From positions 95,803 through 159,802 of the forward strand of contig FN648554.1 in NCBI GenBank assembly GCA_000310025.1: DNA of 64,000 bases, written 5' to 3'. The notes beneath the pieces are model-generated. The model had not been told where the DNA came from. It was given only the letters and a program-made list of their open reading frames with translations, and ran no database searches. Position 1 is the first letter of the stretch; the number at the start of each line of letters is the position of its first letter. Positions 15,151-63,000 of this stretch are shown here, in pieces. The translations under genes were made by a program, and so were the position numbers. This stretch comes from Ectocarpus siliculosus. Its lineage: Eukaryota; Sar; Phaeophyceae; Ectocarpales; Ectocarpaceae.

Positions 15151-15182
15151 TGACGGTCTGTTTCCTGGATTGCGTACATGAG

Positions 15183-40879: not shown

Positions 40880-42197
40880 GGGAAATAGACACAAGTGGGT
40901 ATACCCACCCCTTTCTCGGACTAAAAGTGGGTACTCGAAAATCCAGCGCGCGCGCACTCCATAGGCGATCCCCAAACGACTCAAAACCCCATTCTGACAC
41001 CTGGGAGACACAGTAAGGGACCATACACAGCACGGGCATCGTTTTTTTCCCACTTTTAGGCACACCTTTGGCCCTAATACCGCCGACGCGCGCAAGGCCT
41101 CACCAGAGTGCCCACTTATGTCCGACATCGCGGTGGGTATACCCACCGGCGTCAACTAATTTTTTCACGTACCCACTTGTGTCTGTATTTTGACCCACTT
41201 TTGTCCAAATTGTACCCACTTTTGTCCACTTACGGACGGCGGAAATCGAGCGGAAATCGACCTCCACGTCACCGCACGGCAGAACATCGAATAGCCTCGG
41301 AACGTCTCAGAACCTCCCAACACCGTATCCATGGCATCTTTCTTTCCTATCCATGGCTGCCGACTGCGGACCGACCACGGAGGAACATGTCAGAAACATA
41401 CCAGACCCCTTCGGTACCGGCAGGGGAAGATACCAGGCACGGGAAGATACCCGCGGCAAGCCTACTGTTGTTGCCGTGACGAGTCGGTGTGCACTCGTCG
41501 TGGTGGTTGGTGTTTTTGTGTGTGTGTTGTTGCTGTTTGCGCGTCTTTTTGTTCTGTATGCGCGACCCGTTGGTTGTGTTGTCCGTTGTGTGTCACGCAA
41601 TTTATTTGTGGCGTGCCGTTATTGCGCTGCTTGCCGGGCTTGCCGCGGGTATCTTCCCCTGCCGGTACCGAAGGGGTCTGGCATGTTTCTGACATGTTCC
41701 TCCGTGGTCGGTCCGCAGTCGGCAGCCATGGATAGGAAAGATGCCATGGATACGGTGTTGGGAGGTTCTGAGACGTTCCGAGGCTATTCGATGTTCTGCC
41801 GTGCGGTGACGTGGAGGTCGATTTCCGCTCGATTTCCGCCGTCCGTAAGTGGACAAAAGTGGGTACAATTTGGACAAAAGTGGGTCAAAATACAGACACA
41901 AGTGGGTACGTGAAAAAATTAGTTGACGCCGGTGGGTATACCCACCGCGATGTCGGACATAAGTGGGCACTCTGGTGAGGCCTTGTGCGCGTCGGCGGTA
42001 TTAGGGCCAAAGGTGTGCCTAAAAGTGGGAAAAAAACGATGCCCGTGCTGTGTATGGTCCCTTACTGTGTCGCCCAGGTGTCAGAATGGGGTTTTGAGTC
42101 GTTTGGGGGTCGCCTATGGAGTGCGCGCGCGCTGGATTTTCGATTACCCACTTTAGTCCGAGAAAGGGGTGGGTATACCCACTTGTGTCTATTTCCC
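40880..42197. mobile_element. foldback-type element with arms of about 560-585 bp, 1,318 bp
   Basis: The left arm (40880 to about 41463) and right arm (about 41637-42197) are near-identical reverse complements. The main difference is a 17-bp tandem duplication, AGGCACGGGAAGATACC, in the left arm at about 41435-41451. The tips begin GGGAAATAGACACAAGTGGG and contain the palindrome GTGGGTATACCCAC. The unique centre is only about 173 bp. TTATATATTT lies on both sides (40870-40879 and 42198-42207), a 10-bp target duplication. A 9-10 bp duplication and GG-starting long terminal inverted repeats are compatible with a Mutator-like or Foldback origin. No transposase is encoded. It inserted into the A/T-rich loop of a satellite hairpin. 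Confidence 0.9.
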
Positions 42198-42375
42198 TTA
42201 TATATTTGTGTGGGTCCGGCATTTTTACTCTCTGTATTTATGCGTGAATTGCCCAAGGACACCAACCCCCGAAAGTGGCGCTGTTCAAACAACAAGCCCA
42301 CCAACCACGGCGGCCACACACATTTTATGTGTGTGGTTCCGGCATGTTTTTGTTTCTCTCTGTTTTTACGCGTGA
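42198..42375 (+). repeat. hairpin satellite, segment 2
   Basis: This short piece carries the remaining half of the unit split by the foldback element (GTGTGGGTCCGGCATTTTTAC), then one full unit with CCCGAAAGTGGCGCTGTTC, then part of the next up to ACGCGTGA. It breaks off at the 5' LTR of the Ty3/gypsy element. The last four bases, GTGA (42372-42375), are the target duplication. Confidence 0.9.
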
Positions 42376-42812
42376 TGTCACGGTAGCATGAACGGGCACT
42401 AAATTCTGAGAATCACTCCATTTCACGATGGTTTGAGGAGGGCTACGGTATACCCCAGGGTGTACCTGAATCATTGGCGGAGCCCCTCTAGAGCTCCTCC
42501 TCAACACGTGTTTTGGGTGATCGCTCACTGTTAACACGGCCAATCTCGGAAGAGGAACTTTGACCCACATCGCTAAGCAGCAACCTGTTGTGAGTCAATG
42601 CAGGAGGTAGACCCCCCTTGCTAGTCCCTGCTTGATTAGTCCCCCCTTGTTAGTGCCCCCCTTGACTCAAATGGTAAGAGTCCATGAACCTGATTATGAA
42701 ATGGATGAAACTGACCATGAAATGGAAGAAACTAATTGAACCCTAGCCAGTGCTTGTTACGCTGACACATGAGTGAGCTACCTTAAGCAATAGCGTTATA
42801 ACCACTGTGACA
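42376..42812 (+). repeat. 5' LTR of the Ty3/gypsy-like element (437 bp)
   Basis: It begins TGTCACGGTAGCATGAACGG and ends CCACTGTGACA. The terminal TGTCA/TGACA is an inverted repeat. It contains the direct string CTTGATTAGTCCCCCCTTG and is matched across its whole length by the 3' LTR. Confidence 0.95.
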
Positions 42813-42830
42813 TGGTTGAGGAGTAAGGAT
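42813..42830 (+). other. probable tRNA primer-binding site
   Basis: Directly after the 5' LTR the sequence reads TGGTTGAGGAGTAAGGAT. A primer-binding site starting TGG, complementary to the CCA end of a tRNA and abutting the LTR, is the expected layout. I cannot say which tRNA it matches. Confidence 0.55.
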
Positions 42831-45800
42831 AACTTTAGTTTGTTTACTCGCAGGGACGTTTACTTTTGGCTCAGTTGCTGCTTGCTTCAACTGACGATCT
42901 CTTTTAGAGAGGTTGGATTCGCTCACAATCGTGTAGAACTCAATCGCTACCACCTCGGATACATGACTTCAACAGACCTAGTTTTCGATGACATGGGCCC
43001 CTCGTAGGGGTATCGTAGACACTGGTGAGTTGCACCCTGTGCATGGTATCGCTCCCCGTGGGGGGAGGGATTATGATCCTTCAAAACGTAACACAGCGGA
43101 CACACGAATGTACAACCAAATTCATGCACGAAAAAAATCTTTTTTGACTCCCATTCTAAAATCAAGATGATGGATTTTTTTTTTGAGCTAGCACTACCTT
43201 TTTTTCCAGTGTAAACTGCTCATCGGGTGTTGTCAGAAAATTGTCGTGCTTTACTTTGCTGTGCTGCTGGGATGCTTGAGTCCTGCGCAAAACACGAGAT
43301 CGTATCTCTCATGCACGCACCATGGCTACCAGTGCTTGTCCTGGACGGAGGGAGGTATAACAGCTGTTTGCTGCTGAGGATGGCCACAAGGTATCAGCTG
43401 ACATGTGTGCTGATGGGGACCACACCAGATGACATGGACTGCTGTACACGCACTTTCCTCACAAAATGCTAATACACCGTGTATTGCGCTCTGGACACAA
43501 CGTTTTTTCGGGGCCATTGCGCCATACACACATGCTCTTCACCTGGTACAACCGGCAGAGGCTTTCATCCATCCATATGGCTGCGAGTTCCTGTAGGCAA
43601 TCTGCTCTATACCCGTGTCGTTATGCCAGTTGGTTGTCATCACCTCTTGATTCACGCTCTACCGCAGCGGTTCGTAGATTTCGTACATACTGCTTTTTTT
43701 TTATCCCGTCCTTTTCCGCTATCTCCGCATACCGAGCGTGGACACGCCACCAACCCACTGTTTATGTCATTGGCCGTGCAGGGTTTTCCCTATTCTTTTG
43801 TTGGTTTGAGTGCGGTCCAAACCAATTTATAGGTGTCCTGGTTTTGATGCACGAGACGTTGTAATGTGAGGGTGTTGGAAAGGTTGTGCTGGTGTTCATA
43901 AATTCTCCGCACACACACGTATGCTGCAATGATCCGCTGTACCCCTCTCTCTGAAATCGTCATGCAGCAGCCGTTTCACTCGCCCTGGCCGCAGCTGATG
44001 TACAGCTGCAGCAGCAGTCTTTCAAGTGCCTCACCCACAATTACAGAAATCTTTGGTATGTGACTGTGATTCGCTTGGAGAGCTATGCTATATCTGGCAG
44101 ATATGGCCATGCTGCTGAGGGGTACTCTCCTCAATCATGCAAAAACAACATTGACGCGACGCTGTTATCGTTCAACCATACATGGGGAATCATATGCTGA
44201 CACACGCCGTCTGGAAATGGATCGATCATAATAATAGTGGAATGCTAAATAATAATGTAGATTAATTTCCTTGGTGCTTGTTGTGTGTAAAGTATATGGT
44301 ATAGGAAGAGCGGAAAAGATACTTGTGTAGTGATAAAGGTACCTAATGTACTGACGCGCAACCATAAAAAATAATAGTTGTATCTTTCTACCACTAGACG
44401 GCTGTCTGTGGCATATCTTCCCCATGCATCGGAGTCAATTAACTGTGTCGCATCGACAACAGTGACGTGGTCGTCAGTTAAGGCTGCTGCTGCTCATCGT
44501 TGGGTTGTTTTTCGCATATACTAGGCATCCATAGGAAGACATGTCTTTCATGAACTCTTTGGAAAATATTACGCCAATGTCCGAACAGGAGATGGACCGA
44601 TCGTGATTACAGCACCGTAGTGTGTTGTGTAGCACATTCTAGACAGGTCGACTGCTACTACTGCATAATCTAGTGAGTGAGTGGTAAGAGCTAACACTCG
44701 ATTGTCATTAACCAGGAAGGACGCTAAAAAGTATAATATTCCTGCTGTGTCGTTACACTGGGTGTTGCACTACGATCTTCTATGACTTGTCTCGGCCACA
44801 GGTGGCATATTTTTCCACCAACGCGGTATCTTCAACCGTGTCTTTTGATGCCATTTCAACACCTTCTGTCATTATCCGTGGTTCTTGGGACATATTCTGC
44901 AGATGTCCGAACAACGGATGGATCGATCGTGATGACAGCACATTAGTGTGTTGTGTAGCACATTCTAAAACGTCGACTACTGCATAATAGTGTGAGTAGT
45001 AAGAGCTACGAGTCGACTGTTATTATCCAGGACGACATTAATAAGTATACCTAAATAGTACTACTATGTCGTTACACTGGGTGCTGCACTACGATCTTCC
45101 ATTACTTGCCTCGGCCATGGGTGGCATATTCTCGTCACCACACCTGTGTCGTTACCATACTTCCCTGCCGATCCATTCTCTCTGTGTCCGGTGAAAACAC
45201 ATGGATTCCATCACCGACACCTCGTACACCCGAACCATGACGACCGTAGAAGGCAGGGTCATTCGGAAACATTATGACGGAAACCCGCAGCACGACACCA
45301 CGACCTTTACCGTCACCTTTAACCACATGCCACTACATCCGAAGATGCTGGCACCTTCTGATGAGGGGGGAAACATAGCGAACACGGATGATGATGATGA
45401 AGACAGACGGATTTTGTTGACTGCTCATAAAGGAGCGCGGAAATGCTTTGCTACTCGTGTGACAGACATTGCTATTGACGGTCCCGTAGCTCCCACGAGG
45501 TCACGCAAAAATGAGTATAACGACCCAGGGACAGGCAGCCTCGGAAGAAACATAGGACTCGGTCGGTGTCGTGGGCTTCACATGCCTATCAAGTATACTT
45601 AGACGAGAGGGATGCCGCCTGTGTGGTTGGGGATGCTCTGCGGGGCCGGTGAAAGGAGCACCTATGAACAGTACGGTGTCCTAGTAAGCAGTAAGCCTCT
45701 CTTCAGCGTGGATGTCAAAGAGGAAAAATGAGACACGTTGGACTGGACTGTGTGGGAATGTTGTATAGTGTCCACAATGTTGAGGGATGTGGTTTATATA

Positions 45801-46357
45801 GTTTTGAGGATGCCGTGCTTATCACACTCATGAACGCCAAAGTATCATACACATAAACCGCCTATGGCATATTGCTGGTATGTATTTGAGGAAGTTATTG
45901 GAATAACGTACGTCCTGGAAGGATCGTCGGCGCACGATGTTGGCCGATACATTTTGTAGGATGGTTGTTCATGTGTGGGTCATGCTGTTGGTTAAAACGG
46001 TCTTTGAATATGACCTTGGTTCTGATATGGATATGACCTTGAGGGGATTTCCTTCATGCTTTAGGTTCTCGGTGATATCCCAAGGCACACGTACATGTCC
46101 ACACCGACATTGTACCCGGTTTTAATGATAGATAGTGGTCACCACAATCACCGCGTGTCGTCAGTGTTTACCTTCCCACGCCACCGCAGACATTCATCTC
46201 TAATTTTACGATAATGAACGACAAAGACTGTATTATGGAGATCGTGAACACAGGTCTATCACTCATTCTCAACGTCTGAAGGTTGTGATACAAACACCAG
46301 CGATACTGCGAAGTGATGATTCGTGATTACTGTTCACCTGTCAATGGCAAAGACAAC
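42831..46357 (+). other. long leader of the Ty3/gypsy-like element, with a repeat pair
   Basis: About 3.5 kb lies between the primer-binding site and the first gag ATG, with no recognised domain. A diverged direct repeat of about 250 bp is visible. Copy 1 (about 44578-44840) and copy 2 (about 44904-45155) share GTCCGAACA, GTGTGTTGTGTAGCACATTC, GTCGTTACACTGGGTG and CACTACGATCTTC. A 133-codon frame (45201-45602) with an acidic patch DDDDED follows the second copy. I do not recognise it and cannot tell whether it is translated. Confidence 0.6.
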
Positions 46358-48869
46358 ATGAACAACCAGCAGCAGTACCCGCAGGGAGGGCCGCCCCCTC
46401 CGCCGCCTAGGGGAAAGCCTCCTCAGCAACCTAAACAGTAGGGAGGGCCACCCCTTCCAATGCTGGGAGGGCCGTCCCCTCGGCCGCCTGGAGGACCGCC
46501 TCCTCAACATCTCCACCAGCAGGGAGGGCCGCCCCTTCCACTGCCGGGTGGGCCGCCCCCTCCGCCGCCTGGAGGACCGCCTCCTCAGCAACTTCAACAG
46601 CAGGGAGGACAGCTTCCTCTACCGCCTGGAGGACCGCCTCCTCAGCAACCTCAACAGCAGGGAGGACCGCCTCCTTAGCCGGTTGGGGAACTACTGCCTC
46701 AACAATCAATCCCAACAGCAGGGAGGACTGCCTCCTTTGCCGCGGGGAGGACCGCCTCCTCCACCGGGAGGACCTCCACCTTGGCAACTCCAACAGCAAA
46801 GAGGGCAGTTTCCTCAGAATGATGGAGGACAACCACCTCAACATCTTCATCAGCCAGGAGAGCCACTTCTGCCGACACCTCCGCAACAGGGAGGACCATC
46901 TCCTCATCAGGGCGGATTTCCAGCACACTACCCACAGGCGGGAGGACCTCTTCACCACCAAGGAGGCTTCCACCATTCATGGGGCGTTCCTCATCAGCTG
47001 GCACCATCCCACGGACAGTTTTCGTCCCATGCGAACGTTGACGGAGGACGTCCCCACATGCCCTATAGCGGGGGAGGGCTTCCCGTCGTAGGGAGGGTTT
47101 CATCAACAACCTCAGCCATTCCCCCACCACGGAGGGGGGGGACAGCCGCATTCTGGGGGTCCAGGTCGTGGCTTCTCGCCTCTACAACATGGAGAAGGGG
47201 GAGGTGTGGGGTCTGCGCCTCACGGATACGGATACAACGGAGGGTACTATGGACCGTCACCCTTCTCCTCGGTGTATGCAGTCAACATGGCGGACCCTAA
47301 ACAGCGTCGCCAAGTGTGGGAAGGTATCAAGAAACGCATCGTCCGAGGTACGGGAGAAGGAGGTTTTAAAGGACCCCCGTTGCAGATAAACACGAAGGAC
47401 ACACCTATTTTGAAGGCTCGACATGATCTGCTGGTCTTCCAAGACGTCGTCACAAAGGCGTACGCCATGGAGTCCGGTGCGGTAGCGAAGTTTCCGCCTG
47501 ATCGCATGGCTACTCATCCAGCTTCGGGACATCAGGTGGTTCATCCCGAGCCCGATGATTTCACTCCGGCGTGAGTGGAAGTTCGCCTTGGGTTGCTGCC
47601 ACAGGAAATGGCAGTCGTCACAGAGTACCATGCATCGCGGGGCCAAGAAATGCTAGTCCACGATGTGAGGGGTGGAAAACGGTATGTACCTCAACATGAG
47701 GTGACGGCACTGGATCTCCTGAGGCTCATGACAGAAGAAGAAGCACGGAAACATGCTACGCGTCGTGCAGCAGTCGCAGCATTCAACGGTATAGTGTTGG
47801 GACCCAAGGTGTCGTGGTTGGCGGCGCAAGTGAGAATGGTGCAGTATTTCCGATCCTCAAACCTTGACCCGGAGGCCCCGTACGCCACAGAAGAAGGTTA
47901 CTTCTGGCAACTACTCTCTATGCGTGATCTTCAGATCTTGGAGGAGAACGCGTTGCAGTTATGCTTTCCTCAATGGGGAGACAGGATGCCACGCGAGGCT
48001 CAATTGCTCACGATCAGGGAACGCTACCGACAGAGGCTCGACAACATGCCAGTCATCCGACATGAGCTGGGCTCGCCATACATGGCCAGGAGAGGAGCAC
48101 TCACCAAGGAGATATTCACAAAGTTCTCCAACACCTTAACCCACGATGCCGGACGTTACAAAACACCGACGTCTCCGGCGTCGGCTAACATGATGCATTG
48201 GCACCCAGCAAACTGCCTTTGCAAACCCGTCAATACCCGGCGACATGGGAGGTCGAGGCTAATCAGTCGGCCTTGTGCATGGTGGAGGAACCTATGGCTA
48301 AGGGGAATCTCCATGACGAGGAGCCCATCACGGCCATGGAAGACCACTCGGCAGGATCGAGGCAACGAGGCAACCAGGGAGGCTATAAAAGAGAGGGAGA
48401 CGGACGGGAGACCCCACAGACATTCAAACGTCACAAGGACCACACTGATCGAGCGACATCTCAACGTCAACAGTCCCGCACTTTCTCTCCGGGAGTGACC
48501 CCAGACAAGGGGGAACAGAAAGAACGCAGGACCTTCCAGAGGAACCTCCCGGAGGATGCACCGAAGCCAGAGGACTCCGCAGAGAACATTGAGAGGTATA
48601 TCATGCGCTCAAAGACTTGCTTCTTCCACGCCCGAGGAGTATCTTGTCCTCACATGGCTGAACAATTCTTTTGCAACTACAGTCATGAAAAAGTACCCTT
48701 TGGAATCTACCCCTACAAGGAGAGGGTCTCAGCGAAAGTACATCTCGCAATGATCACTTTGGAACAACTCTCGCGTGAGGACGAGGAGATAAGGGGTGAT
48801 GTGAGGGAGGCGCTGCCAGAGGAGATGGACTTTGAAGACGAGGAGGGAGAGCACTCATCGTCCCACTGA
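46358..48869 (+). pseudogene. gag region of the Ty3/gypsy-like element, frameshifted
   Basis: The ATG at 46358 starts a Pro/Gln/Gly-rich repetitive N terminus (units like GGPPPQQLQQQ). Stops occur in it at 46439 and near 46676, and the reading then changes frame several times to about 47150. The middle part runs in one frame at 47206-48150 (VYAVNMADPKQRRQVWEG onward) with a single in-frame TGA at 47572. The last part (about 48150-48869) lies in another frame and carries a CCCH-like finger, C-x8-C-x8-C-x3-H starting CFFHARGVSC (about 48618-48690). An acidic end follows. The stop at 48867 separates gag from a protease in the same frame. I infer a capsid/RNA-binding role from position. No classical CCHC knuckle is present. 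Confidence 0.75.
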
Positions 48870-48959
48870 GGGTGCGCCCTAGGAGCAAGACTCCTGGGGA
48901 ACACACAGGATAGGCATCCAACGCGGGAGTCCTGCGACAGCGCCCTGGACAATGAAGTT

Positions 48960-49395
48960 GCCGTTGTGACTCCCACGAACAAGGCAGTTCCGCCACCTCG
49001 AGGGTCCCAGCAAGCATGGGTTAAAGCGAGTCTATGGAATAAACAAACAAGACAAAATACTCATGCAGTGGAGGTGCTGGTGGACTCGGGTGCGGGAGGA
49101 GGCAATTACGCGTCTTGGACGTTCATTCAGGGAGTGGAAAGAACCAGTATGGAGGAAAGAACATGGTGTCAACGAAAGGAAGGGGCCGACTACGAGCAGC
49201 TAATCCGAGTGACAGTGGAGTAGCTCCGATGACCATTCGAGGGACATGTGTGCTGTTCTTAGTCTTTCCCTTGATTGATGAGATTTTCGGTGTGAGAGTG
49301 AGAGTTGTGGAGGGACTTCCTGTAGGTCTCATTCTAGGCACTGCGTTCATGCGTCAATACAACAGCACGCTAGACTTTGGAGGCTCGCGGTCTTG
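48960..49395 (+). pseudogene. retropepsin-like protease (Ty3/gypsy-like pol)
   Basis: The frame continuing from the gag stop shows VEVLVDSGAGGGNYASW (about 49066-49120), with the D-S-G-A active site of retroviral-type aspartic proteases. After a frameshift near 49120-49200 the second half reads GVRVRVVEGLPVGLILGTAF and TLDFGG (about 49288-49383), the usual flap and ILG region. The family cuts Gag-Pol polyproteins as a dimer. Non-functional here because of the frameshift. Confidence 0.8.
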
Positions 49396-49749
49396 GTGGT
49401 TTCGACCATCACCCACATCTGATCGAACACCACTGCTGCCATACATGGAGCCTTCGAGAGTGAAAGCTAAGACACCACGTGGACTACATAGGAGACCAAA
49501 CGAGGAGAACGAACCAACTCGAGCGTTCTACACGGTGGAAGATCAAGCAGAGGAAGACGTTCGACAATCACCGCCGTCTGAAGTACTGGCAATGGAGGCT
49601 CTGGAATTAGGGTCAACAGCGTGGGAGGATGATGGGACGTTGACATGGCCCATCTATGTTGACCAAGAAATCAACGGACCTGACAGTGCTCAATCAGGGA
49701 CTGGCAGCGGGAACCTTCAGGCTATCCACCTCTTCGTGGTGCTCACGGA

Positions 49750-50255
49750 TTGTGCCTGCTCCCTAATTCCGACGGCACATACCGCATCTGTAAAGACTAA
49801 AATCTCAACAAGCTCATCAAGAAGGATAGTGGTGGACTTGGCGACATTACGGGCATGCTCGATCGGATGAAATGGAGTAAGTTATTCTCATCTCTCGACT
49901 TGGCACAGGCATATCATCAACTGGAACTTGAGGAGACGGACAAACATAAGACGGCCTTTAGGGGCCCCACGGGACGTCTACTCGAGTCAAATCGATGCGC
50001 CTTTGGTATCACCATAATCCCCGCCGTTCTTCTCAGGCAAGTTGAGTGATGATCTGCGAGAGTTATTGGGCAAGGGCTTGGAGAAATGGTTGGATGACAT
50101 CGCACTCCACACAAAGACGTTGCAAGAACACTTCGTGCTGCTGGAGAAGGTCCTCACTATCCTGAAACGAAAAGGGTACACAGGCCACTTCTTGAAAAGC
50201 GAATTTCTATTGCCAGAGCTCAAGTTCTTAGAGGTCATGGTCGGAAGGGATGGAA
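49750..50255 (+). pseudogene. reverse transcriptase (Ty3/gypsy-like pol)
   Basis: DGTYRICKD, then a stop at about 49798, then NLNKLIKKD gives the early RT motifs. FSSLDLAQAYHQLELEETDK (about 49885-49945) is the motif A block with its catalytic aspartate, and CAFGI marks the motif B neighbourhood (about 49999). A deletion follows, then KWLDDIALHTKTLQEHFVLL (about 50087-50147), where WLDD stands in place of the usual Y-x-DD. The thumb-like LKFLEVMVGRDG comes next. The order and sequence fit Ty3/gypsy RT. Stops and deletions make it inactive. Confidence 0.82.
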
Positions 50256-50625
50256 CTCGACCAGCACCATCGAAGCTTGATCGCGGCAGGGTCAGTCCTG
50301 ACACAGCAGGTGGAGAACAGAGAGGCTCCGGTCAGATACGCCAGTAAGAGGTTGTCCAGGTCAGAGGAAAAACTGTCGTCAAACGATCGGGAGGTTCTGG
50401 GAGTGTTGTATGCACTAGACCATTTCAAGATTTACCTTCAGCACCGTCAGTTCACTCTCATCACGGACTGTGCGGCCCTGATGTGGCTCTTCACTAGCCA
50501 AAACCGATCGTCAAAAGATGCACCGTTGGGCGCTAAAGATGATGGCGTATGATATGGTCTTGAAGTGGAGAAGGGGAACAGACCATGTCGTTCCAGACGC
50601 TCTCTCTAGACTCCGGCGGAAAGGC
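50255..50625 (+). pseudogene. RNase H (Ty3/gypsy-like pol)
   Basis: GSVLTQQVENREAPVRYASK, then SEEKLSSNDREVLGVLYALD with the catalytic glutamate, then FTLITDCAALMWL with an aspartate (about 50290-50495). After a frameshift near 50515 it continues RWALKMMAYDMVLKWRRGTD and PDALSR (about 50520-50610), the normal end of gypsy RNase H. The first catalytic aspartate region is missing at a deletion junction with RT. Confidence 0.85.
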
Positions 50626-50929
50626 TGTGGCGAACCCGATGTCGACACCACATTACCGGGTGATGGAGATGGCGAAGTAAGGGGGAGCGGGCCGGCAGGA
50701 CCAGTGTTGGAAGGGGTTCCTCTCCAAAGGATGGCACAATCACAACTTGAGGAAGAAGAGGAGAGAAGTGACTCACAACCGGAGTTAGTCATGCTCAACA
50801 AGGAAGACATCAAAGTCGATGGAATCTGCTTAGCTGACCTGGGGCCAACAGAGGTCAATGACAGAAAAGTGGAGAATCTCAGTGTGTTCTATGCATTGCA
50901 GATCACACCTGATGCGTTGACACCGAGGG

Positions 50930-51780
50930 ACGAGGAGTACGTAGCGGCGTATCAACAAGCACAAGGTCTCTTTACACTAAGACAGCCGCGGGCGGCTGTT
51001 CTCGGTCGAGGGGCATGTGGAGCACTACAAGCCGTTGAGGGTATGCTGGACGTTACATGTGTGATTGACTCTGATTGGAAGACCACGGAGTGCATCAGAG
51101 TGAGCGGAGGAGCCGGTGATGCGAAATTGATTCGTCAGCCTTTAGAGTCCGACACACATCATCAAAATGCTCGAGTATAAACCCGAAATCCTCATTGGCA
51201 ATGCGTGTGCCATTGAGGATGGTCCAGACGAAGGAGCGAGGACAGGGCGAAATGCAGACAACATTGTGCAGATGTTCGTGTCGTCCCCCATCCAGATCCT
51301 GGTAATGGAGAGTCCAGTAGGCTTTGCAGGGTCAGAGAGATGGAAGAACATTCTTCACCCAGAACTGCACCTGGCGGGCTGTGAAACGGCAACAGCGTCT
51401 CTGTCAGCGACAGCAGTCGGGATACCCACAACAAAACGGAGAGTGTCTGTGGTAGCAGTCAAGAAAAGGGGGGATCCCAATTTGACAGTTAACTATCTCA
51501 GTGGAAGAAAAATGCGGAGAGAACCGCACCGTCGACACCCACGGTCGGTGCCTTTTTGAGAAGACAGGGATGTTTCTTCTTGAAACGGGAACGTCAGAAC
51601 AAGGAGATATTCTCGTTTGAGGAGCCGGTGGTGACGGTTACAAGGGAACACATCATGGGCCGTAAACCCCTATCAACAGTTTTACGGCACACCCCAACGA
51701 TGCAGGGTCTTTGCAGGAAGCGCAAGAGCTATCGTGGGAAGATTACGTGAAGCTAACCACCAACCGGGACGCGGACTACC
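50930..51780 (+). pseudogene. cytosine-C5 DNA methyltransferase-like domain inside pol
   Basis: Between RNase H and integrase, blocks follow the order of C5-cytosine DNA methyltransferases. A motif I-like S-adenosylmethionine site reads GACGALQAVEGMLDVTCVID (about 51015-51075). After a frameshift at about 51150 a motif IV-like block reads KPEILIGNAC with a cysteine where the catalytic Cys is expected (about 51176-51208). Then come a motif VI-like ILVMESPVGFAG with the glutamate (about 51293-51330) and a motif VIII-like AVGIPTTKRRVSVVAV (about 51413-51460). Further on, IFSFEEPVVTVTREHIMG (about 51610-51660) and, in another frame, WEDYVKLTTNRDADYP (about 51732-51780) look like the target-recognition and C-terminal parts. 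The family transfers a methyl group from S-adenosylmethionine to cytosine C5. The copy is frameshifted, and PCQ and QxRxR are imperfect, so it is inactive as seen. Assignment is by motif order and spacing; a profile search would decide. Confidence 0.65.
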
Positions 51781-52500
51781 CATATCAGTGCGCTGTGATC
51801 CAGGCGCAGAAATCACCTCGGCGATCATGGAACACCTGTGCCGGTGGCTCAATTATCCCTCGACTTTGGACCGACCAACCATCCTAGAGGACAGGGAACA
51901 GTCGAGAGGATGGGAGCGGTGCTGCAAGAGATGCTGTCGGAGCTCTGCCAGGCATGGCCGAACAGGTGGGATGAGTATGTGGCAGTGATCGCTTGGGCCC
52001 ATCGTACGACGCCGGAGGAGAGCCTTCCAAACAAAGAGTCGGCATACCAACTGCTCTTTGGACGGGCGCCAAGGACATCATTTGATCACATACATGTCGC
52101 CATCACTAGACAACTCGGGCCCAGCATTGCCGTTGGAAAGGACGGTGGAGGAAACGAGAAGGAAGACCGTGGAGGTGATGCAAGTGCTAAAAGTGAGACA
52201 GGAAAATCGGAATAGACGCCGCGAACTCCAGAACGCGAGGATCAAACGTGCATCACCAGGCACCAAGGCTAAGGTGGGCGACAAGGTATTGGTCGAGGAG
52301 AGCGCCAGTACACTCTACCGGGATGGCGTCCACCCTAAACTTGCCCATGACCACTTCACAGGACCGTGGCAAGTCGTGCACGTCGTGCGAGAGGGGTTGA
52401 GATTTACTGTAAGACTGCATGGACGTCAAATCCGCCAGAGGACGGTGGCAGCCACGGACTTCAAGCCGTTTCATTCTCGACCACAAGACATCAAACATCC
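51760..52500 (+). pseudogene. integrase core and C-terminal module (Ty3/gypsy-like pol)
   Basis: The core resumes at GLPISVRCDPGAEITSAIME (about 51771-51830) with the second catalytic aspartate. After a frameshift it continues HPRGQGTVERMGAVLQEML (about 51879-51935) with the catalytic glutamate and AYQLLFGRAPRT. The zinc-binding N terminus and first aspartate are missing; the junction runs straight from the methyltransferase-like tail into the core, pointing to a deletion. The C-terminal part has VGDKVLVEE, a GPY/F-type block DHFTGPWQVVHVVREGL (about 52349-52400) and KPFH. Integrase would join element DNA to the target. Confidence 0.85.
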
Positions 52501-52945
52501 ATTTGAAGATGAGTTTGGTCATTTTGTGTGGTCGCCGGATTTAGGACTAGCTGAAGACTGCCTCGTCGCGGCACCTCTGTATACTTTGGTGAATAGACGG
52601 GTGGTCCAGAGCGCTGGAGGAATAGCGTCCGCATGGGCATGGGAGTATAGAGGAAAATATCAGGATGGCACCACTTCTTCGTGGATCACCAAAGACACTG
52701 CCAGGGACAGTTTCTCGCCTCTGCAACTTGATGTTTTTCATGCCTTGTGGGAAGACTTTCACGGGGTGAATATCGCACCACGACCCCCGGGACCGCCGTC
52801 GCGAGGAGACCGCGAAGTAGCAACGCGGACCGAAGCTCTCACGGAAGTTCCCTGTGGACCCATGTTTGGACGGGAGCTCATGGATCAAGAGAACAGTATT
52901 GTGCTAAGCAGAGGGAAGGTCTGCGATTTCTATGATCCGTATTGA
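52501..52945 (+). pseudogene. C-terminal chromodomain-like tail of pol
   Basis: Continuing in frame from the integrase C-terminal module, the tail shows YTLVNRRVVQS (about 52578-52610) followed by WAWEYRGKYQDGTTSSWIT (about 52633-52690) and LDVFHALWEDFH. The aromatic W-x-Y, the GKY and the following W resemble the order of a chromodomain, as found at this place in chromoviral integrases, where it guides integration to modified histones. The match is weak and the last about 60 residues are unassigned. The stop is at 52943. Confidence 0.45.
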
Positions 52946-53570
52946 AGAGTGGAGTTCAGCGACGGAGATTGGGAAGAGCTCAATCGCAGGAAGTTAAGGC
53001 GTGGAATGGGCCTTGCCACCAGACTCCCGCCGCTGACCGCTCAAGAATCGTGAAGTCGTACACTGCCTGCCATCTACCGTCCTCCATGCGGGAAGGTGGG
53101 GTGTGTGTGACGGCAGTGGCACGAATGAGGAGTTCCAAGATTGTCTTCTACAGCGGAAGATCGTCCTCAACAGTCGGTGATCGTCGGTCAAGATGCAAGA
53201 TCGTCGTCATAGTCGTCGGTCTTGGGAGACTGTTTGTGGAAGAACGTCTTCAACAGTGGAAAATCACCTTCTTCAGTGGACGATCGCCTTTTTCAGTTCA
53301 AGATCGTCATCGTCAAGGAGTTCGGTGTATACGGCGGCCAAAGTACTAACGGCCGTCATTCGGGGTCGATGATTTCAGCCGTGTAACATCGACGTCGAAC
53401 ACACCGGCATCCGTCCTCTCGAGGTCAAATCCATTTTTTGTGGTTTAACCTGGGGACGGCGGCATCCTCCCTTTTCAGATCTATATTCCCGGCGTGGTAT
53501 GATCTGAGGAGGGAGAAGCGCACGTTCTGCTACCTCCTTAGCATTTTGCGTTTTTCAACACATTCATGCT
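52946..53570 (+). other. 3' non-coding part of the Ty3/gypsy-like element
   Basis: No coding domain. From about 53140 to 53310 short imperfect repeats of AAGATCGTC or GATCGTC with TCTTCAACAGTGGAA-like words give a degenerate purine/pyrimidine pattern. The rest is unremarkable. Confidence 0.6.
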
Positions 53571-53577
53571 GGGGGGG
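53571..53577 (+). other. polypurine tract
   Basis: Seven G directly precede the 3' LTR (TGTCACGG). This is the expected place of the plus-strand priming site. The Gag-only element has a similar G6 tract before its own 3' LTR. Confidence 0.7.
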
Positions 53578-54014
53578 TGTCACGGTAGCATGAACGGGCG
53601 CTAAATACTGAGAATAATTCCATTTCACGATGGTTTGAGGAGGGCTAGGGTATACCCCAGGGTGTACCTGAACCATTGGCGGAGCCCCTCTAGAGCTCCG
53701 CCTCCCCACGTGTTTTGGGTGATCGCTCACTGTTAACACGGCCAATCTCGGAAGAGGAACATTGACCCACATCGCTCAGCAGCAACCAGTTGTGAGTCAA
53801 TGCAGGAGGTAGACACCCCTTGCTAGTCCCTCCTTGATTAGTCCCCCCTTGTTAGTCCCCCCCTTGACTCAAATGGTAAGAGTCCATGAACCTGACCATG
53901 AAATAGATGAAACTGGCCATGAAATGGAAGAAACTAATTGAACCCTAGCCAGTGCTTGTTACGCTGACACATGAGTGAGCTACCTTAAGCAATAGCGTTA
54001 TAACCACTTTGACA
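53578..54014 (+). repeat. 3' LTR of the Ty3/gypsy-like element (437 bp)
   Basis: Same length and ends as the 5' LTR (TGTCACGGTAGC ... CCACTTTGACA), with about 20 substitutions. It is followed by GTGA (54015-54018), the target duplication, and then by the resumed satellite unit. Confidence 0.95.
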
Positions 54015-57000
54015 GTGAATTGCCCCAAGACAACAGCCCCAGTAAGTAGCGCTCTCGGAACAACAAGCTTAGCTACCACGGTCGCCACACACTTTTTATG
54101 TGTGTGGTTCCGGCAATTATACTCTATATCTCTGCGTGTATTGCCCAAGGACAACGACCCCGGGAAGTGGCGCTGTTCCAACAACAAGCCCACCTACCAC
54201 GGCCGCCACACGCTATTTATGTGTGTGGTTCCGGCATTTTTACTTTCTGTATTATGTGCGTGAATTGCCAAAGGACAACAACCTCGGTAAGTGGGGCTGT
54301 TCCAACGAAAAACCCACCAACCACGGCCCCCACACGCGATTTATGTGTGTGGTTCCGGCATTTTTAACCCTCTGGGTTTATGCGTGAATTGTCCAAGGAC
54401 AACAACCCCGGTAAGTGGCCCTGTTGGAACGACAAGCTCACCAACAACGGCGGGCACACACGATTTATGCGTGTGGTTCCGGCATTTTTAACACTCTGTG
54501 TCTCTGCGCGACTTGCCCAAGGACAACAACCCCGGTAAGTGGACGCTTTTGGAACACCCAGCCCACCAACCACGGCCGCCACACACGTTGTATGTGTGTG
54601 GTTCCGGCATTTTGAACCCTCTGGCTTTAGGCGTGAATTGCCCAAGGACAACGACCCCGGTAAGTGTCGCTGTTGGAACGACAAGCCCACCAACCACGGC
54701 CGCCACAAAATGTTTTTGTGTGTGGTTCCGGCATTTGTTTTACTCTCTGTATTCATGCGTGAATTGCCCGAAGACAACAGCCCCAGTACGTTGCACCGTG
54801 GGAACAAAAACCTCAGCCACCACGGCCGCCACACGCGATTTATATGTGTGGTTCCGGCATTTTTTACCCTCTTGGTTGATGCGTGAATTGCCCAAGGACA
54901 ACGACCCGGGTAAGTGGCCCTGTTGGAACGGCGAGCCCACCAACCACGGCGGGCACACACGATTTATGTGTGTGCTCCCGGCATTTTTACACTCTTTGTC
55001 TCTGCGTGACTTGCCCAAGGACCACAACCCCGGTAAGCGGACCTGTTGGAACACCCAGCCCACCAACCACGGCCGCCACACACATTTTATGTGTGTGGTT
55101 CCGGCATGTGTTTGTTTCTCTCTGTATTCATGCGTGAACTGCCCGAAGACAACAACCTCGGTAAGTGGCGCTGTCCCAACAACAAGCCCACCAATCACGG
55201 CCGCCACACACTATTTATGTGTGTGCTTCCGGCATTTTTAACCCTCTGGGTTTATGCGTGAATTGCCCAAGGACAACAACCCCGGTAAGTGGCCCTGTTG
55301 GAACGACACGCTCACCAACAACGGCGGGCACACACGATTTATGCGTGTGCTTCGGGCATTTTTAACACTCTGTGTATCTGCGCGACTTGCCCAAGGACAA
55401 CAACCCGGGTAAGTGGACCCTTTTGGAACACCCAGCCCACCAACCACGGCCGCCACACACGTTGTATGTGTGTGGTTCCGGCATTTTGAACCCTCTGGCT
55501 TTAAGCGTGAATTGCCCAAGGACAACGACCCCGGTAAGTGTCGCTGTTGGAACGACAAGCCCACCAACCACGGCCGCCACACATTTTTTATGCGTGTGGT
55601 TCCGGCATTTTTACTATCTGTATATATTCGTGAATTGCCGCAGGACCACGACCCCGGGAAGTGGAGCTGTTCCAACAACGAGCCCACCAACCACGGCCGC
55701 CACACACTATTTCTGTGTGTGGTTCCGGCAATTTCACTCTCTGTATTGTGTGCGTGAATTGCCAAAGGACAACAACCTCGGTAAGTGGCGCAGTTCCAAC
55801 AATAAGCCCACCAACCACGGCCGCCACACACTATTTATGTGTGTGGTTCCGGCATATTTATGTCTCCGGGTTTATGCGTGAATTGTCCAAGGACAACAAC
55901 CCCGGTAAGTGGTATTGTTGGAACGACAAGCCCACCAACCACGGCGGGCACACACGATTTATGTGTGTGGTTCCGGCATTTTTTACCCTCTGTATTCATG
56001 CGTGAATTGCTAAAGGACAACAACCTCGGTAAGTGGCGCTGTCCCAACAACAAGCCCACCAACCACGGCCGTCACACAATGTTTTTGTGTGTGGTTCCGG
56101 CATTTGTTTTACTCTCTGTATTCATGCGTGAATTGCCCGAAGACAACAGCCCCAGTACGTTGCACCGTGGGAACAAAAACCTCAGCCACCACGGCCGCCA
56201 CACGCGATTTATATGTGTGGTTCCGGCATTTTTGACCCTCTTGGTTAATGCGTGAATTGCCCAAGGATAACGACCCGGGTAAGTGGCCCTGTTGGAACGG
56301 CAAGCCCACCAACCACGGCGGGCACACACGATTTATGCGTGTGCTCCCGGCATTTTTAACACTCTGTGTCTCTGCGTGACTTGCCCAAGGACAACAACCC
56401 CGGTAAGTGGAGCTGTTGGAACACCCAGCCCACCAACCACGGCCGCCACACACGTTTTATGTGTGTGGTTTTGGTATGTGTTTGTTTCTCTCTGTATTCA
56501 TGCGTGAACTGCCCGAAGACAACAACCTCGGTAAGTGGCGCTGTCCCAACAACAAGCCCACCAATCACGGCCTCCACACACTTTTTTTGTGTGTGGTTCC
56601 GGCATTTTCAATACTCTGTATTTGTGCGTGAATTGCTAAAGAACAACAACCTCGGTAAGTGGCGCAGTTGGAACAATAAGCCCACCAACCACGGCCGCCA
56701 CACAATGTTTTTGTGTGTGGTTCCGGCATTTTTAACACTCTGTGTCTCTGCGTGACTTGCCCAAGGACAACAACCCCGGTAAGTGGAGCTGTTGGAACAC
56801 CCAGCCCACCAACCATGGCCGCCACACACATTTTATGTGTGTGGTTCCGGCATTTTTTACCCTCTGTATTCATGCGTGAATTGCTAAAGGACAACAACCT
56901 CGGTAAGTGGCGCTGTCCCAACAACAAGCCCACCAACCACGGCCGTCACACAATGTTTTTGTGTGTGGTTCCGGCATTTGTTTTACTCTCTGTATTCATG

Positions 57001-60000
57001 CGTGAATTGCCCGAAGACAACAGCCCCAGTACGTTGCACCGTGGGAACAACAAGCTCAGCCACCACGGCCGCCACACGCGATTTATATGTGTGGTTCCGG
57101 CATTTTTTACCCTCTTGGTTAATGCGTGAATTGCCCAAGGATAACGACCCGGGTAAGTGGCCCTGTTGGAACGGCAAGCCCACCAATCACGGCCTCCACA
57201 CACGATTTATGCGTGTGCTCCCGGCATTTTTAACACTCTGTGTCTCTGCGTGACTTGCCCAAGGACAACAACCCCGGTAAGTGGAGCTGTTGGAACACCC
57301 AGCCCACCAACCACGGCCGCCACACACGTTTTATGTGTGTGGTTTTGGTATGTGTTTGTTTCTCTCTGTATTAATGCGTGAATTGCCCGAAGACAACAAC
57401 CTCGGTAAGTGGCGCTGACCCAACAACAAGCCCACCAATCACGGCCGCCACACACTATTTATGTGTGTGGTTCTGCATTTGTTTTACTCTCTGTATTCAT
57501 GCTTGCCCGAAGACAACAGCCCCAGTACGTTGCACCGTGGGAACAAAAACCTAAGCCACCACGGCCGCCACACGCGATTTATGTGTGTGGTTCCGGCATT
57601 TTTTACCCTCTTGGTTGATGCGTGAATTGCCCAAGGACAACGACCCGGGTAAGTGGCCCTGTTGGAACGGCAAGCCCACCAACCACGGCCGCCACACACA
57701 TTTTATGTGTGTGGTTCCGGCATGTGTTTGTTTCTCTCTGTATTCATGCGTGAACTGCCCGAAGACAACAACCTCGGCAAGTGGCGCTGTCCCAACAACA
57801 AGCCCACCAATCACGGCCTCCACACACTATTTATATGTGTGGTTCCGGCATTTTTAACACTCTGTGTCTCTGCGTGACTTGCCCAAGGACAACAACCCCG
57901 GTAAGTGGAGCTGTTGGAACACCCAGCCCACCAACCACGGCCGCCACACACATTTTATGTGTGTGGTTCCGGCATGTGTTTGTTTCTCTCTGTATTCATG
58001 CGTGAACTGCCCGAAGACAACAACCTCGGTAAGTGGCGCTGACCCAACAACAAGCCCACCAATCACGGCCGCCACACACTATTTATGTGTGTGGTTCTGC
58101 ATTTGTTTTACTCTCTGTATTCATGCTTGCCCGAAGACAACAGCCCCAGTACGTTGCACCGTGGGAACAAAAACCTAAGCCACCACGGCCGCCACACGCG
58201 ATTTATGTGTGTGGTTCCGGCATTTTTTACCCTCTTGGTTGATGCGTGAATTGCCCAAGGACAACGACCCGGGTAAGTGGCCCTGTTGGAACGGCAAGCC
58301 CACCAACCACGGCGGGCACACACGATTTATGCGTGTGCTCCCGGCATTTTTAACACTCTGTGTCTCTGCGTGACTTGCCCAAGGACAACAACCCCGGTAA
58401 GTGGCGCTGTTGGAACAACAAACCCACCAACAACGGCCGCCACACACATTTTATGTGTGTGGTTCCGGCGTTTTTAAAACTCTGTATTTGTGCGTGAATT
58501 GCTAAAGGACAACGACCCGGGTAAGTGGCATTGTTGGAACGACAATCCCACCAACAACGGCGGGCACACACGATTTATATGTGTGGTTCCGGCATTTTTA
58601 ACACTCTGTGTCTCTGCGTGACTTGCCCAAGGACAACAACCCCGGTAAGTGGAGCTGTTGGAACACCCAGCCCACCAACCACGGCCGCCACACACATTTT
58701 ATGTGTGTGGTTCCGGCATTTTTAACCCTCTTGGTTAATGCGTGAATTGCCCAAGGATAACGACCCGGGTAAGTGGCCCTGTTGGAACGGCAAGCCCACC
58801 AAGCACGGCCGCCACACAATGTTTTTGTGTGTGGTTTCGGCATTTGTTTTACTCTCTGTATTCATGCTTGCCCGAAGACAACAGCCCCAGTACGTTGCAC
58901 CGTGGGAACAACAAGCTCAGCCACCACGGCCGCCACACGCGATTTATGTGTGTGGTTCCGGCATTTTTAACCCTCTTGGTTAATGCGTGAATTGCCCAAG
59001 GATAACGACCCGGGTAAGTGGCCCTGTTGGAACGGCAAGCCCACCAACCACGGCCGCCACACAATGTTTTTGTGTGTGGTTCCGGCGTTTGTTTTACTCT
59101 CTGTATCCATGCGTGAACTGCCCGAAAACAACAACCTCGGTAAGTGGCGCTGTCCCAACAACAAGCCCACCAATCACGGCCTCCACACACCATTTATGTG
59201 TTAGGTTCCGGCATTTTAATTACTCTGTATTTGTGCGTGAATTGCTAAAGGACAACGACCCGGGTAAGTGGCATTTTTGGAACGGCAATCCCACCAACAA
59301 CGGCGGGCACACACGATTTATATGTGTGGTTCCGGCATTTTTAACCCTCTTGGTTAATGCGTGAATTGCCCAAGGATAACGACCCGGGTAAGTGGCCCTG
59401 TTGGAACGGCAAGGCCACCAACCACGGCCGCCACACAATGTTATTGTGTGTGGTTCCGGCATTTGTTTTACTCTCTGTATTCATGCGTGAATTGCCCAAG
59501 GACAACAACCCCGGTAAGTGGAGCTGTTGGAACACCCAGCCCACCAACCACGGCCGCCACACACATTTTATGTGTGTGGTTCCGGCATGTGTTTGTTTCT
59601 CTCTGTATTTATGCGTAAACTGCCCGAAGACAACAACCTCGGTAAGTGGCGCTGTCCCAACAACAAGCCCACCAATCACGGCCGCCACACACTATTCATG
59701 TGTGTGGTTCTGCATTTGTTTTACTCTCTGTATTCATGCTTGCCCGAAGACAACAGCCCCAGTACGTTGCACCGTGGGAACAAAAACCTAAGCCACCACG
59801 GCCGCCACACGCGATTTTTGTGTGTGGTTCCGGCATTTTTACTTTCTGTATTATGTGCGTGAATTGCCCAAGGACAACGACCCGGGTAAGTGGCCCTGTT
59901 GGAACGGCAAGCCCAGCAACCACGGCGGGCACACACGATCTATGCGTGTGCTCCCGGCATTTTTAACACTCTGTGTCTCTGCGTGACTTGCCCAAGGACA

Positions 60001-63000
60001 ACAACCCCGGTAAGTGGAGCTGTTGGAACACCCAGCCCACCAACCACGGCCGCCACACACATTTTATGTGTGTGGTTCCGGCATGTGTTTGTTTCTCTCT
60101 GTATTCATGCGTGAACTGCCCGAAGACAACAACCTCGGTAAGTGGCGCTGTCCCAACAAGAAGCCCACCAATCACGGCCGCCACACACTTTTATGTGTGT
60201 GGTTCCGGCACTTTTAACCCTCTGTATTTGTGCGTGAATTGCTAAAGGACAACAACCTCGGTAAGTGGCGCCGTTGGAACAATTAGCCCATCAACCACGG
60301 CCACCACACAACGTTATTGTGTGTGGTTCCGGCATTTGTTTTACTCTCTGTATTCATGCGTGAATTGCCCGAAGACAACAGCCCCAGTACTTTGCACCGT
60401 GGGAACAACAACCTCAGCCACCACGGCCGCCACACGCGATTTATATGTGTGGTTCCGGCATTTTTGACCCTCTTGGTTGATGCGTGAATTGCCCAAGGAT
60501 AACGACCCGGGTAAGTGGCCCTGTTGGAACGGCAAGCCCACCAACCACGGCGGACACACACGATATATGGGTGTGCTCCCGGCATTTTTAAACACTCTGT
60601 GTCTCTGCGTGACTTGCCCAAGGACAACAACCCCGGTAAGTGGAGCTGTTGGAACACCCAGCCCACCAACCACGGCCGCCACACACATTTTATGTGTGTG
60701 GTTCCGGCATTTTTAACCCTCTTGGTTAATGCGTGAATTGCCCAAGGATAACGACCCGGGTAAGTGGCCCTGTTGGAACGGCAAGCCCACCAAGCACGGC
60801 CGCCACACAATGTTATTGTGTGTGGTTTCGGCATTTGTTTTACTCTCTGTATTCATGCTTGCCCGAAGACAACAGCCCCAGTACGTTGCACCGTGGGAAC
60901 AACAAGCTCAGCCACCACGGCCGCCACACGCGATTTATGTGTGTGGTTCCGGTATGTGTTTGCTTTCTCTCTGTATTCATGCGTGAACTGCCCGAAGACA
61001 ACAACCTCGGTAAGTGGCGCTGTCCCAACAACAAGCCCACCAATCACGGCCTCCACACACTATTTATGTGTGTGGTTCCGGCATTTTTAACCCTCTGTAT
61101 TCATGCGTGAATTTGCTAAAGGACAACAACCTCGGTAAGTGGCGCTGTTGGAACCATAAGCCCACCAACCACGGCCGCCACACAATGTTTTTGTGTGTGG
61201 TTCCGGCGTTTGTTTTACTCTCTGTATTCATGCGTGAATTGCCCGAAGACAACAGCCCCAGTACGTTGCACCGTGGGAACAAAAACCTAAGCCACCACGG
61301 CCGCCACACGCGATTTATGTGTGTGGTTCCGGCATTTTTAACCCTCTTGGTTGATGCGTGAATTGCCCAAGGACAACGACCCGGGTAAGTGGCCCTGTTG
61401 GAACGGCAAGCCCAGCAACCACGGCGGGCACACACGATTTATGCGTGTGCTCCCGGCATTTTTAACACTCTGTGTCTCTGCGTGACTTGCCCAAGGACAA
61501 CAACCCCGGTAAGTGGAGCTGTTGGAACACCCAGCCCACCAACCACGGCCGCCACACACATTTTATGTGTGTGGTTCCGGCATGTGTTTGTTTCTCTCTG
61601 TATTCATGCGTGAACTGCCCGAAGACAACAACCTCGGTAAGTGGCGCTGTCCCAACAACAAGCCCACCAATCACGGCCGCCACACACTTTTATGTGTGTG
61701 GTTCCGGCACTTTTAACCCTCTGTATTTGTGCGTGAATTGCTAAAGGACAACAACCTCGGTAAGTGGCGCCGTTGGAACAATTAGCCCATCAACCACGGC
61801 TACCACACAACGTTATTGTGTGTGGTTCCGGCATTTGTTTTACTCTCTGTATTCATGCGTGAATTGCCCGAAGACAACAGCCCCAGTACGTTGCACCGTG
61901 GGAACAACAACCTCAGCCACCACGGCCGCCACACGCGATTTATATGTGTGGTTCCGGCATTTTTGACCCTCTTGGTTGATGCGTGAATTGCCCAAGAATA
62001 ACGACCCGGGTAAGTGGCCCTGTTGGAACGGCAAGCCCACCAACCACGGCGGACACACACGATTTATGGGTGTGCTCCCGGCATTTTTAACACTCTGTGT
62101 CTCTGCGTGACTTGCCCAAGGACAACAACCCCGGTAAGTGGAGCTGTTGGAACACCCAGCCCACCAACCACGGCCGCCACACACATTTTATGTGTGTGGT
62201 TCCGGCATTTTTAACCCTCTTGGTTAATGCGTGAATTGCCCAAGGATAACGACCCGGGTAAGTGGCCCTGTTGGAACGGCAAGCCCAGCAACCACGGCGG
62301 GCACACACGATTTATGCGTGTGCTCCCGGCATTTTTAACACTCTGTGTCTCTGCGTGACTTGCCCAAGGACAACAACCCCGGTAAGTGGAGCTGTTGGAA
62401 CACCCAGCCCACCAACCACGGCCGCCACACACATTTTATGTGTGTGGTTCCGGCATGTGTTTGTTTCTCTCTGTATTCATGCGTGAACTGCCCGAAGACA
62501 ACAACCTCGGTAAGTGGCGCTGTCCCAACAACAAGCCCACCAATCACGGCCGCCACACACTTTTATGTGTGTGGTTCCGGCACTTTTAACCCTCTGTATT
62601 TGTGCGTGAATTGCTAAAGGACAACAACCTCGGTAAGTGGCGCCGTTGGAACAATTAGCCCATCAACCACGGCCACCACACAACGTTATTGTGTGTGGTT
62701 CCGGCATTTGTTTTACTCTCTGTATTCATGCGTGAATTGCCCGAAGACAACAGCCCCAGTACGTTGCACCGTGGGAACAACAACCTCAGCCACCACGGCC
62801 GCCACACGCGATTTATATGTGTGGTTCCGGCATTTTTGACCCTCTTGGTTGATGCGTGAATTGCCCAAGGATAACGACCCGGGTAAGTGGCCCTGTTGGA
62901 ACGGCAAGCCCACCAACCACGGCGGACACACACGATTTATGGGTGTGCTCCCGGCATTTTTAACACTCTGTGTCTCTGCGTGACTTGCCCAAGGACAACA

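Follow-up and report, generated by a model that had tools for sequence, protein, structure and literature searches.

A predicted C5-methyltransferase-fold domain as a regular part of pol in a family of Ty3/gypsy retroelements

The window analysed here, by which we mean the whole 64-kb stretch of DNA (G+C content 53.5%), holds a decayed long terminal repeat (LTR) retroelement of the Ty3/gypsy type at 42376-54014. Comparison with its relatives shows, on the strength of structure predictions and sequence profiles, that the family to which it belongs carries a predicted C5-methyltransferase fold as a regular part of pol, positioned between RNase H and the zinc-binding domain of the integrase. The first-pass annotation, made from the letters of the window alone, had proposed such a domain, C5-methyltransferase-like and placed between RNase H and integrase. 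The predicted fold, profile-profile comparisons and the conservation of the domain within the family all support the proposal; the annotation identified the domain and its location correctly and was also right to treat its function as conjecture.

Predicted fold and distribution of the domain

The predicted fold spans the whole domain, with both the target-recognition part and the helix region at the C-terminus. The best Foldseek match is human DNMT2, and each of the 50 matches listed per model is a C5-methyltransferase, counting one C5-carboxymethyltransferase, aligned over the entire domain; M.HhaI, M.HaeIII, DNMT1 and DNMT2 score alike among the structural matches listed, and DNMT3 is not among the 50. 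Sequence identity to the catalytic domains of M.HhaI, M.HaeIII, DNMT2 and DNMT1 in the structural alignments is 8-18%. At the profile level, hhalign against an alignment of nine C5-methyltransferases gives E-values of 2.3e-4 (A1), 2.5e-4 (A2) and 3.6e-5 (A4); shuffles of A4 score far lower, the real profile reaching twice the score of the best shuffle. With Dcm alone as the template hhalign finds no match, and a sequence search of the PDB with the domain profile returned three weak matches, all unrelated. Given the uniform structural matches and the margin over the shuffles, it is very improbable that the resemblance is an accident of some other Rossmann-fold domain or of a chance run of motifs. 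Of 13 pattern matches in viral contigs and 22 in genome contigs, none was confirmed as a relative of the domain from a virus or prokaryote.

When the 189-Mb assembly (492 contigs; match counts are lower bounds) is searched with the domain of P0009, the 87 matches, merged within 3 kb, fall into at least 48 places, the window's included, and 39 of these span at least 600 bp. The first domain fragment of the window itself finds 14 other places at 79-93% identity, some in long open frames, and other copies are open through the domain, for example over 1807, 1649 and 1943 residues. Homologous proteins were found with the first query (six, P0005-P0010), with the domain profile (seven, P0011-P0017) and for the third subfamily (two, P0019 and P0020), the first two protein searches having scored the best 7990 and 7995 candidates by shared words; P0006 comes from a EukProt set, and P0010, from Ectocarpus sp. 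CCAP 1310/34, is limited to the later half of the domain. The objection raised with the original proposal, that the interval might be a separate insertion peculiar to the window copy, has nothing beyond the decay of that copy in its favour, and it is rejected as practically impossible because the block is present in other copies: it recurs at 47 other places of the assembly, adjoins RNase H in the assembly copies read and is found in polyproteins from other sources as well.

A separate observation in the same assembly concerns the Pfam profile DNA_methylase (PF00145), which has two exon-like matches, on C2 only; by reading, C2:8123250-8128541 appears to be a Dnmt2-like host gene split by introns. 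This lone Dnmt2-like gene, the one relative with a species name (P0010, from Ectocarpus) and the Ectocarpus-like G+C content of the window suggest that the host is probably a brown alga; the assembly gave no match to the RuBisCO large subunit and a single match to DOT1.

The putative active site

The catalytic motifs can be located in the window copy as follows, under the conventional motif names and M.HhaI residue positions.

51001..51021, + strand: motif I, LGRGACG (most other members of the window copy's subfamily have LGRGAGG)
51191..51208, + strand: motif IV, LIGNAC, with the Cys codon at 51206-51208; NAC lines up with PC in C5-methyltransferases
51302..51319, + strand: motif VI, VMESPV, with the Glu codon at 51308-51310 and the Glu aligned to ENV
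51422..51448, + strand: motif VIII, IPTTKRRVS, aligned to PQxRxR
51735..51767, + strand: motif IX-like, WEDYVKLTTNR, in a region that aligns with the RECxRLxGF region

All the strings on which the first-pass annotation relied are present in the sequence, namely GACGALQAVEG (51010-51042), ILIGNAC (51188-51208), ILVMESPVGF (51296-51325), AVGIPTTKRRVSVVAV (51413-51460) and KLTTNRDADY (51750-51779), with PDALSR at the end of RNase H and RCDPGAEI and GQGTVERM after KLTTNRDADY; they are spread over three frames because the window copy is decayed. KLTTNRDADY, which had been taken for the C-terminal block, falls instead in the motif IX region, the last part of the domain being deleted in this copy.

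The family divides into clade A, which comprises subfamilies 1 and 2 together with P0005-P0016, and clade B, the third subfamily (C30, C129, C241, P0019 and P0020). In clade A the usual reading is GNAC for motif IV, E[SCAT]P for motif VI and PTxKxR for motif VIII. The motif IV Cys is retained in 25/28 places with a readable motif, the motif VI Glu in 23/24 readable places, with Asn-Val replaced, and the second Arg of motif VIII in 22/24. Two of the three places without the Cys, C5 and C9, have a domain interrupted by stop codons; the third, C36, does not. Among the homologous proteins of clade A with a readable motif IV, nine of ten have the Cys, and P0013 has a Tyr. The motif VI Glu is retained in clade B, and several sequences there have, by reading, an alternative Cys two residues before or three after the motif IV position, where the nucleophile may have shifted; P0020 has none nearby.

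The domain thus has a predicted C5-methyltransferase fold and misses the strict motif definition, and it is therefore labelled here as a C5-methyltransferase-fold domain and is assigned to no named DNMT class.

Selection and history

The domain is under purifying selection. In subfamily 1 the ratio of nonsynonymous to synonymous substitution rates (dN/dS) of the domain has a median of 0.51 over 13 places (78 pairs, range 0.23-0.79), and that of the reverse transcriptase (RT)-RNase H region a median of 0.44 (66 pairs); among seven better-preserved copies the domain gives 0.25-0.62. Six places of subfamily 2 provide 15 pairs, one of them without dS: three near-copy pairs have ratios of 0.43-0.58, four pairs with the second C147 copy 0.31-0.43, and seven older pairs 0.13-0.18 with dS saturated. 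The low values of the older pairs are the telling ones, because dead copies decay neutrally. Clade B ranges from 0.25 to 1.12 (6 pairs). The linkers, with medians of 0.42 and 0.34, provide no neutral control because they are also constrained.

The RT-RNase H tree (17 rows; 18 were gathered, and C131 had no match) groups nine rows, from subfamilies 1 and 2 and related elements, as a single starred clade; this clade forms a trichotomy with C30 of clade B and three domain-free elements of this genome, four other elements lying outside. This arrangement is compatible with a single gain of the domain. In the domain-free sister Gypsy lineage the absence was read directly in C150 and C19, and C16 gave no match in the domain search; C150 has, by reading, a low-complexity linker in place of the domain and a Tudor-like tail. 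A tail of this kind is suggested for domain-bearing elements, where PTM_DIR17_Tudor matches P0007, P0009, P0010 and C30 with 14.3-22.6 bits, under the cut-off of 27.2, and is not listed for P0005 and P0008.

Architecture of the window copy

The element in the window consists of the following features.

42372-42375 and 54015-54018: target duplication, GTGA, 4 bp, flanking the element on both sides
42376..42812, + strand: 5' LTR, TGTCACGG...GTGACA, 95.4% identical, ungapped over 437 bp, to 53578-54014
42813..42830, + strand: candidate primer binding site TGGTTGAGGAGTAAGGAT, which starts with TGG directly after the 5' LTR
46362..48869, + strand: gag-like region, overlapping frames with a Pro/Gln-rich start, assigned by position and open frames, with no identifying Pfam family
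49801..50347, + strand: RT remnant in two frames (RVT_1 of Pfam, E 1.8e-6 and 0.0044)
50232..50613, + strand: RNase H, ending in PDALSR (RT_RNaseH of Pfam, E 3.7e-20; end set by reading)
50614..50874, + strand: linker from RNase H to the first aligned residue of the domain
50875..51775, + strand: C5-methyltransferase-fold domain, decayed, C-terminal end missing (matches 50875-51678, tail by reading; fold predicted from homologs)
51768..51776, + strand: deletion junction between domain and integrase core, from the frames on both sides and the spacing in related polyproteins
51773..52215, + strand: integrase core remnant from GLPISVRCDPG, read against P0005/P0009; its fragments have no Pfam match
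52868..53008, + strand: Tudor-like C-terminal segment with an internal TGA, by likeness to the tails of homologs
53578..54014, + strand: 3' LTR, pairing with 42376..42812

The LTR pair and the short target duplication are those of a Ty3/gypsy element, as is the Pfam order of RT, RNase H and then integrase in P0005, P0007, P0009 and the C30 element. The interval originally marked out from 50625 does contain the domain, which occupies approximately 50875-51775, and its beginning is linker. Within the domain the frame changes near 51150-51180, 51490-51560 and 51680-51735. The integrase core noted after the domain is indeed read there, and its closeness is the result of a deletion: the spacing from LTT to PLSIR is 345-428 residues in all five related polyproteins examined, and judged from these the window copy has lost approximately 340-420 residues, comprising the end of the domain, a linker, the zinc-binding domain and the first part of the core.

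The element is inserted inside an array of an approximately 124-bp tandem satellite, found at 38502-40880, 42198-42350 and 54015-64000, with 80 copies in the right part. Internal Pro/Gln-rich repeats with 57- and 81-bp units lie at the start of the gag-like region (46370-46842), and a repeat of approximately 250 bp occurs twice, 326 bp apart, at 44559-45130 in the long stretch between the 5' LTR and gag. Elsewhere in the window, an open frame at 13815-15485 encodes gag of the Copia type together with Pol_BBD (Retrotran_gag_2, E 1.6e-6).

A catalytic domain or a scaffold

The best explanation, to which we give a probability of roughly 0.55 as a whole, is that the domain is a regular pol component that was captured once, is catalytic in clade A and is non-catalytic in clade B. 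Capture would have preceded the split of the subfamilies. In clade A the domain would still bind S-adenosylmethionine and methylate cytosine in the element's own nucleic acid, be it cDNA, genomic RNA or the tRNA primer, inside the particle or the pre-integration complex, with the Cys of motif IV, the Glu of motif VI and the Arg of motif VIII, all retained, serving in catalysis. In clade B it would probably only bind cofactor or nucleic acid because the Cys is gone, and the Tudor-like tail would act separately, in the choice of chromatin.

A number of observations weigh against this explanation. The Pfam check suggested along with the original proposal gave weak, sub-threshold DNA_methylase matches in four of seven less decayed domains (best E 0.043), none of the seven exceeding the cut-off of 22 bits and the window's own fragments matching not at all; NCBIfam has nothing above cut-off on the domain, with dcm in one of seven at E 0.062. 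The intact PCQ, ENV and QxRxR that had been anticipated in other copies occur in no copy read: the Pro and Gln of motif IV and the Asn-Val of ENV are lost in the family, and the GN of motif X is, by reading, absent. None of the five clade B sequences has a Cys at the motif IV position, which is Glu in C30 and C129, Gly in C241, Ala in P0019 and Ser in P0020. The single branch for the domain-bearing clade has a support of only 45/16. Copies with long open frames are also numerous in the domain-free sister lineage, and the domain is therefore not required for retrotransposition. Finally, no CpG-specific decay was found in the composition of the element, in the copies of subfamily 1 or in the LTR pair (7 transitions and 13 transversions). 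The observed/expected ratio of CpG is 0.79 over 46300-53600 vs 0.965 in the window, and that of GpC is also 0.79; C/T differences per C site amount to 8.1% for CpG, 7.2% for CpC, 5.7% for CpT and 3.7% for CpA (136 pairwise blocks of subfamily 1, codon constraint included), and the near-equal CpG and CpC values thus give no strong sign of methylation-driven decay. As far as such composition can tell, this speaks against lasting CpG methylation of the inserted copies and would leave a transient marking of cDNA or RNA unaffected.

The persistence of the fold and an open frame in clade B without the Cys, the erosion of motifs IV and VI even in clade A and the lack of CpG-specific decay would also suit a domain that is catalytically dead in all clades and acts as a scaffold binding nucleic acid or cofactor, for example by positioning cDNA for the integrase or by spacing RNase H from the integrase. 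This is a serious possibility, albeit one we do not favour, and it sits poorly with clade A, where Cys (25/28), Glu (23/24) and Arg (22/24) are retained, none of which a pure scaffold would require. A special case of the best explanation is that the domain is not a DNA enzyme and instead acts as a DNMT2-like RNA 5-methylcytosine methyltransferase on the tRNA primer or genomic RNA. Human DNMT2 as the closest structural match and the missing CpG signal point in this direction, as does the report that brown algae, which are the likely hosts, lack DNA methylation (PMC13076208). The equal standing of M.HhaI, M.HaeIII, DNMT1 and DNMT2 in the structural lists argues against it, and so does the search for the primer tRNA, which gave a pattern count of 10 vs 12 in the control and found no tRNA in the two loci scanned, which makes this narrower version rather unlikely.

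Relation to other methyltransferase-bearing retroelements

Retrotransposon cytosine methyltransferases were known before from dinoflagellates (Symbiodinium) and a charophyte alga, De Mendoza et al. 2018 having described Dnmt-bearing LINE, DIRS and Gypsy elements (PMC5890265). The closest parallel is KnitGypsy-Dnmt3 of Klebsormidium nitens, likewise a Ty3/gypsy element with a methyltransferase domain in Pol under purifying selection. The Klebsormidium domain can be recognised as a Dnmt3 and conserves its key residues (PMC5890265), whereas the one described here is nearly invisible to Pfam, has altered motifs IV, VI and VIII and lacks the Cys in one clade. It may still belong to DNMT3, although that family is missing from the 50 matches listed per model. 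SymbioDIRS-Dnmt3 and SymbioLINE-Dnmt of Symbiodinium are also retrotransposon-borne C5-methyltransferases, and the SymbioDIRS enzymes perform de novo CG methylation; unlike the present family, they reside in DIRS and LINE elements, in hosts with most CGs methylated (PMC5890265).

Among brown algae, Gypsy-10_Ec32 of Ectocarpus is a Ty3/gypsy element with a C-terminal Tudor domain, which the Tudor-like tail of the window family's relatives may resemble; compared by description only, it differs in that the text consulted mentions no methyltransferase in it (PMC12477816), and it could be of the domain-free type. The same 2025 paper describes a Sola1 DNA transposon with a ParB/DNA methyltransferase gene and, in the text consulted, no Gypsy methyltransferase. 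Early-branching brown algae are reported to have DNMT1 orthologues, and Copia LTR and DIRS elements to carry members of DNMT3 (PMC12344493); according to a 2026 chromatin paper, DNMT1/3/5 were lost across brown algae (PMC13076208). A 2019 opinion article refers in general terms to DAM-/DCM-encoding Ty3/Gypsy and DIRS elements in Stramenopiles among others, its text naming neither Ectocarpus nor Phaeophyceae (PMC6338049). In the literature searched, which covered few subscription journals, no description of the domain was found.

Perhaps the more surprising part, as the sequences of the relatives suggest, is that the active site appears to have been remodelled in one clade and taken apart in the other, in elements whose likely hosts reportedly have no DNA methylation. 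It is tempting, if speculative, to suppose that the lineage kept an active, strongly altered C5-cytosine methyltransferase past the loss of host methylation in brown algae, the only one there besides DNMT2, with GNAC in place of PCQ working on retroelement RNA or cDNA and a Cys-less sister clade keeping it as a non-catalytic part of pol. If the host is a brown alga, the family adds a lineage reported to be without DNMT1, DNMT3 and DNMT5 (PMC13076208) to those with such elements. Domains of this kind can escape standard profile searches, and a statement that an organism has 'no DNA methyltransferases' may therefore need the qualifier 'host-encoded'. With one clade retaining the catalytic Cys, another retaining the fold without it and a close relative lacking the domain, the family provides a natural comparison that makes it directly testable what a methyltransferase domain does for retrotransposition.
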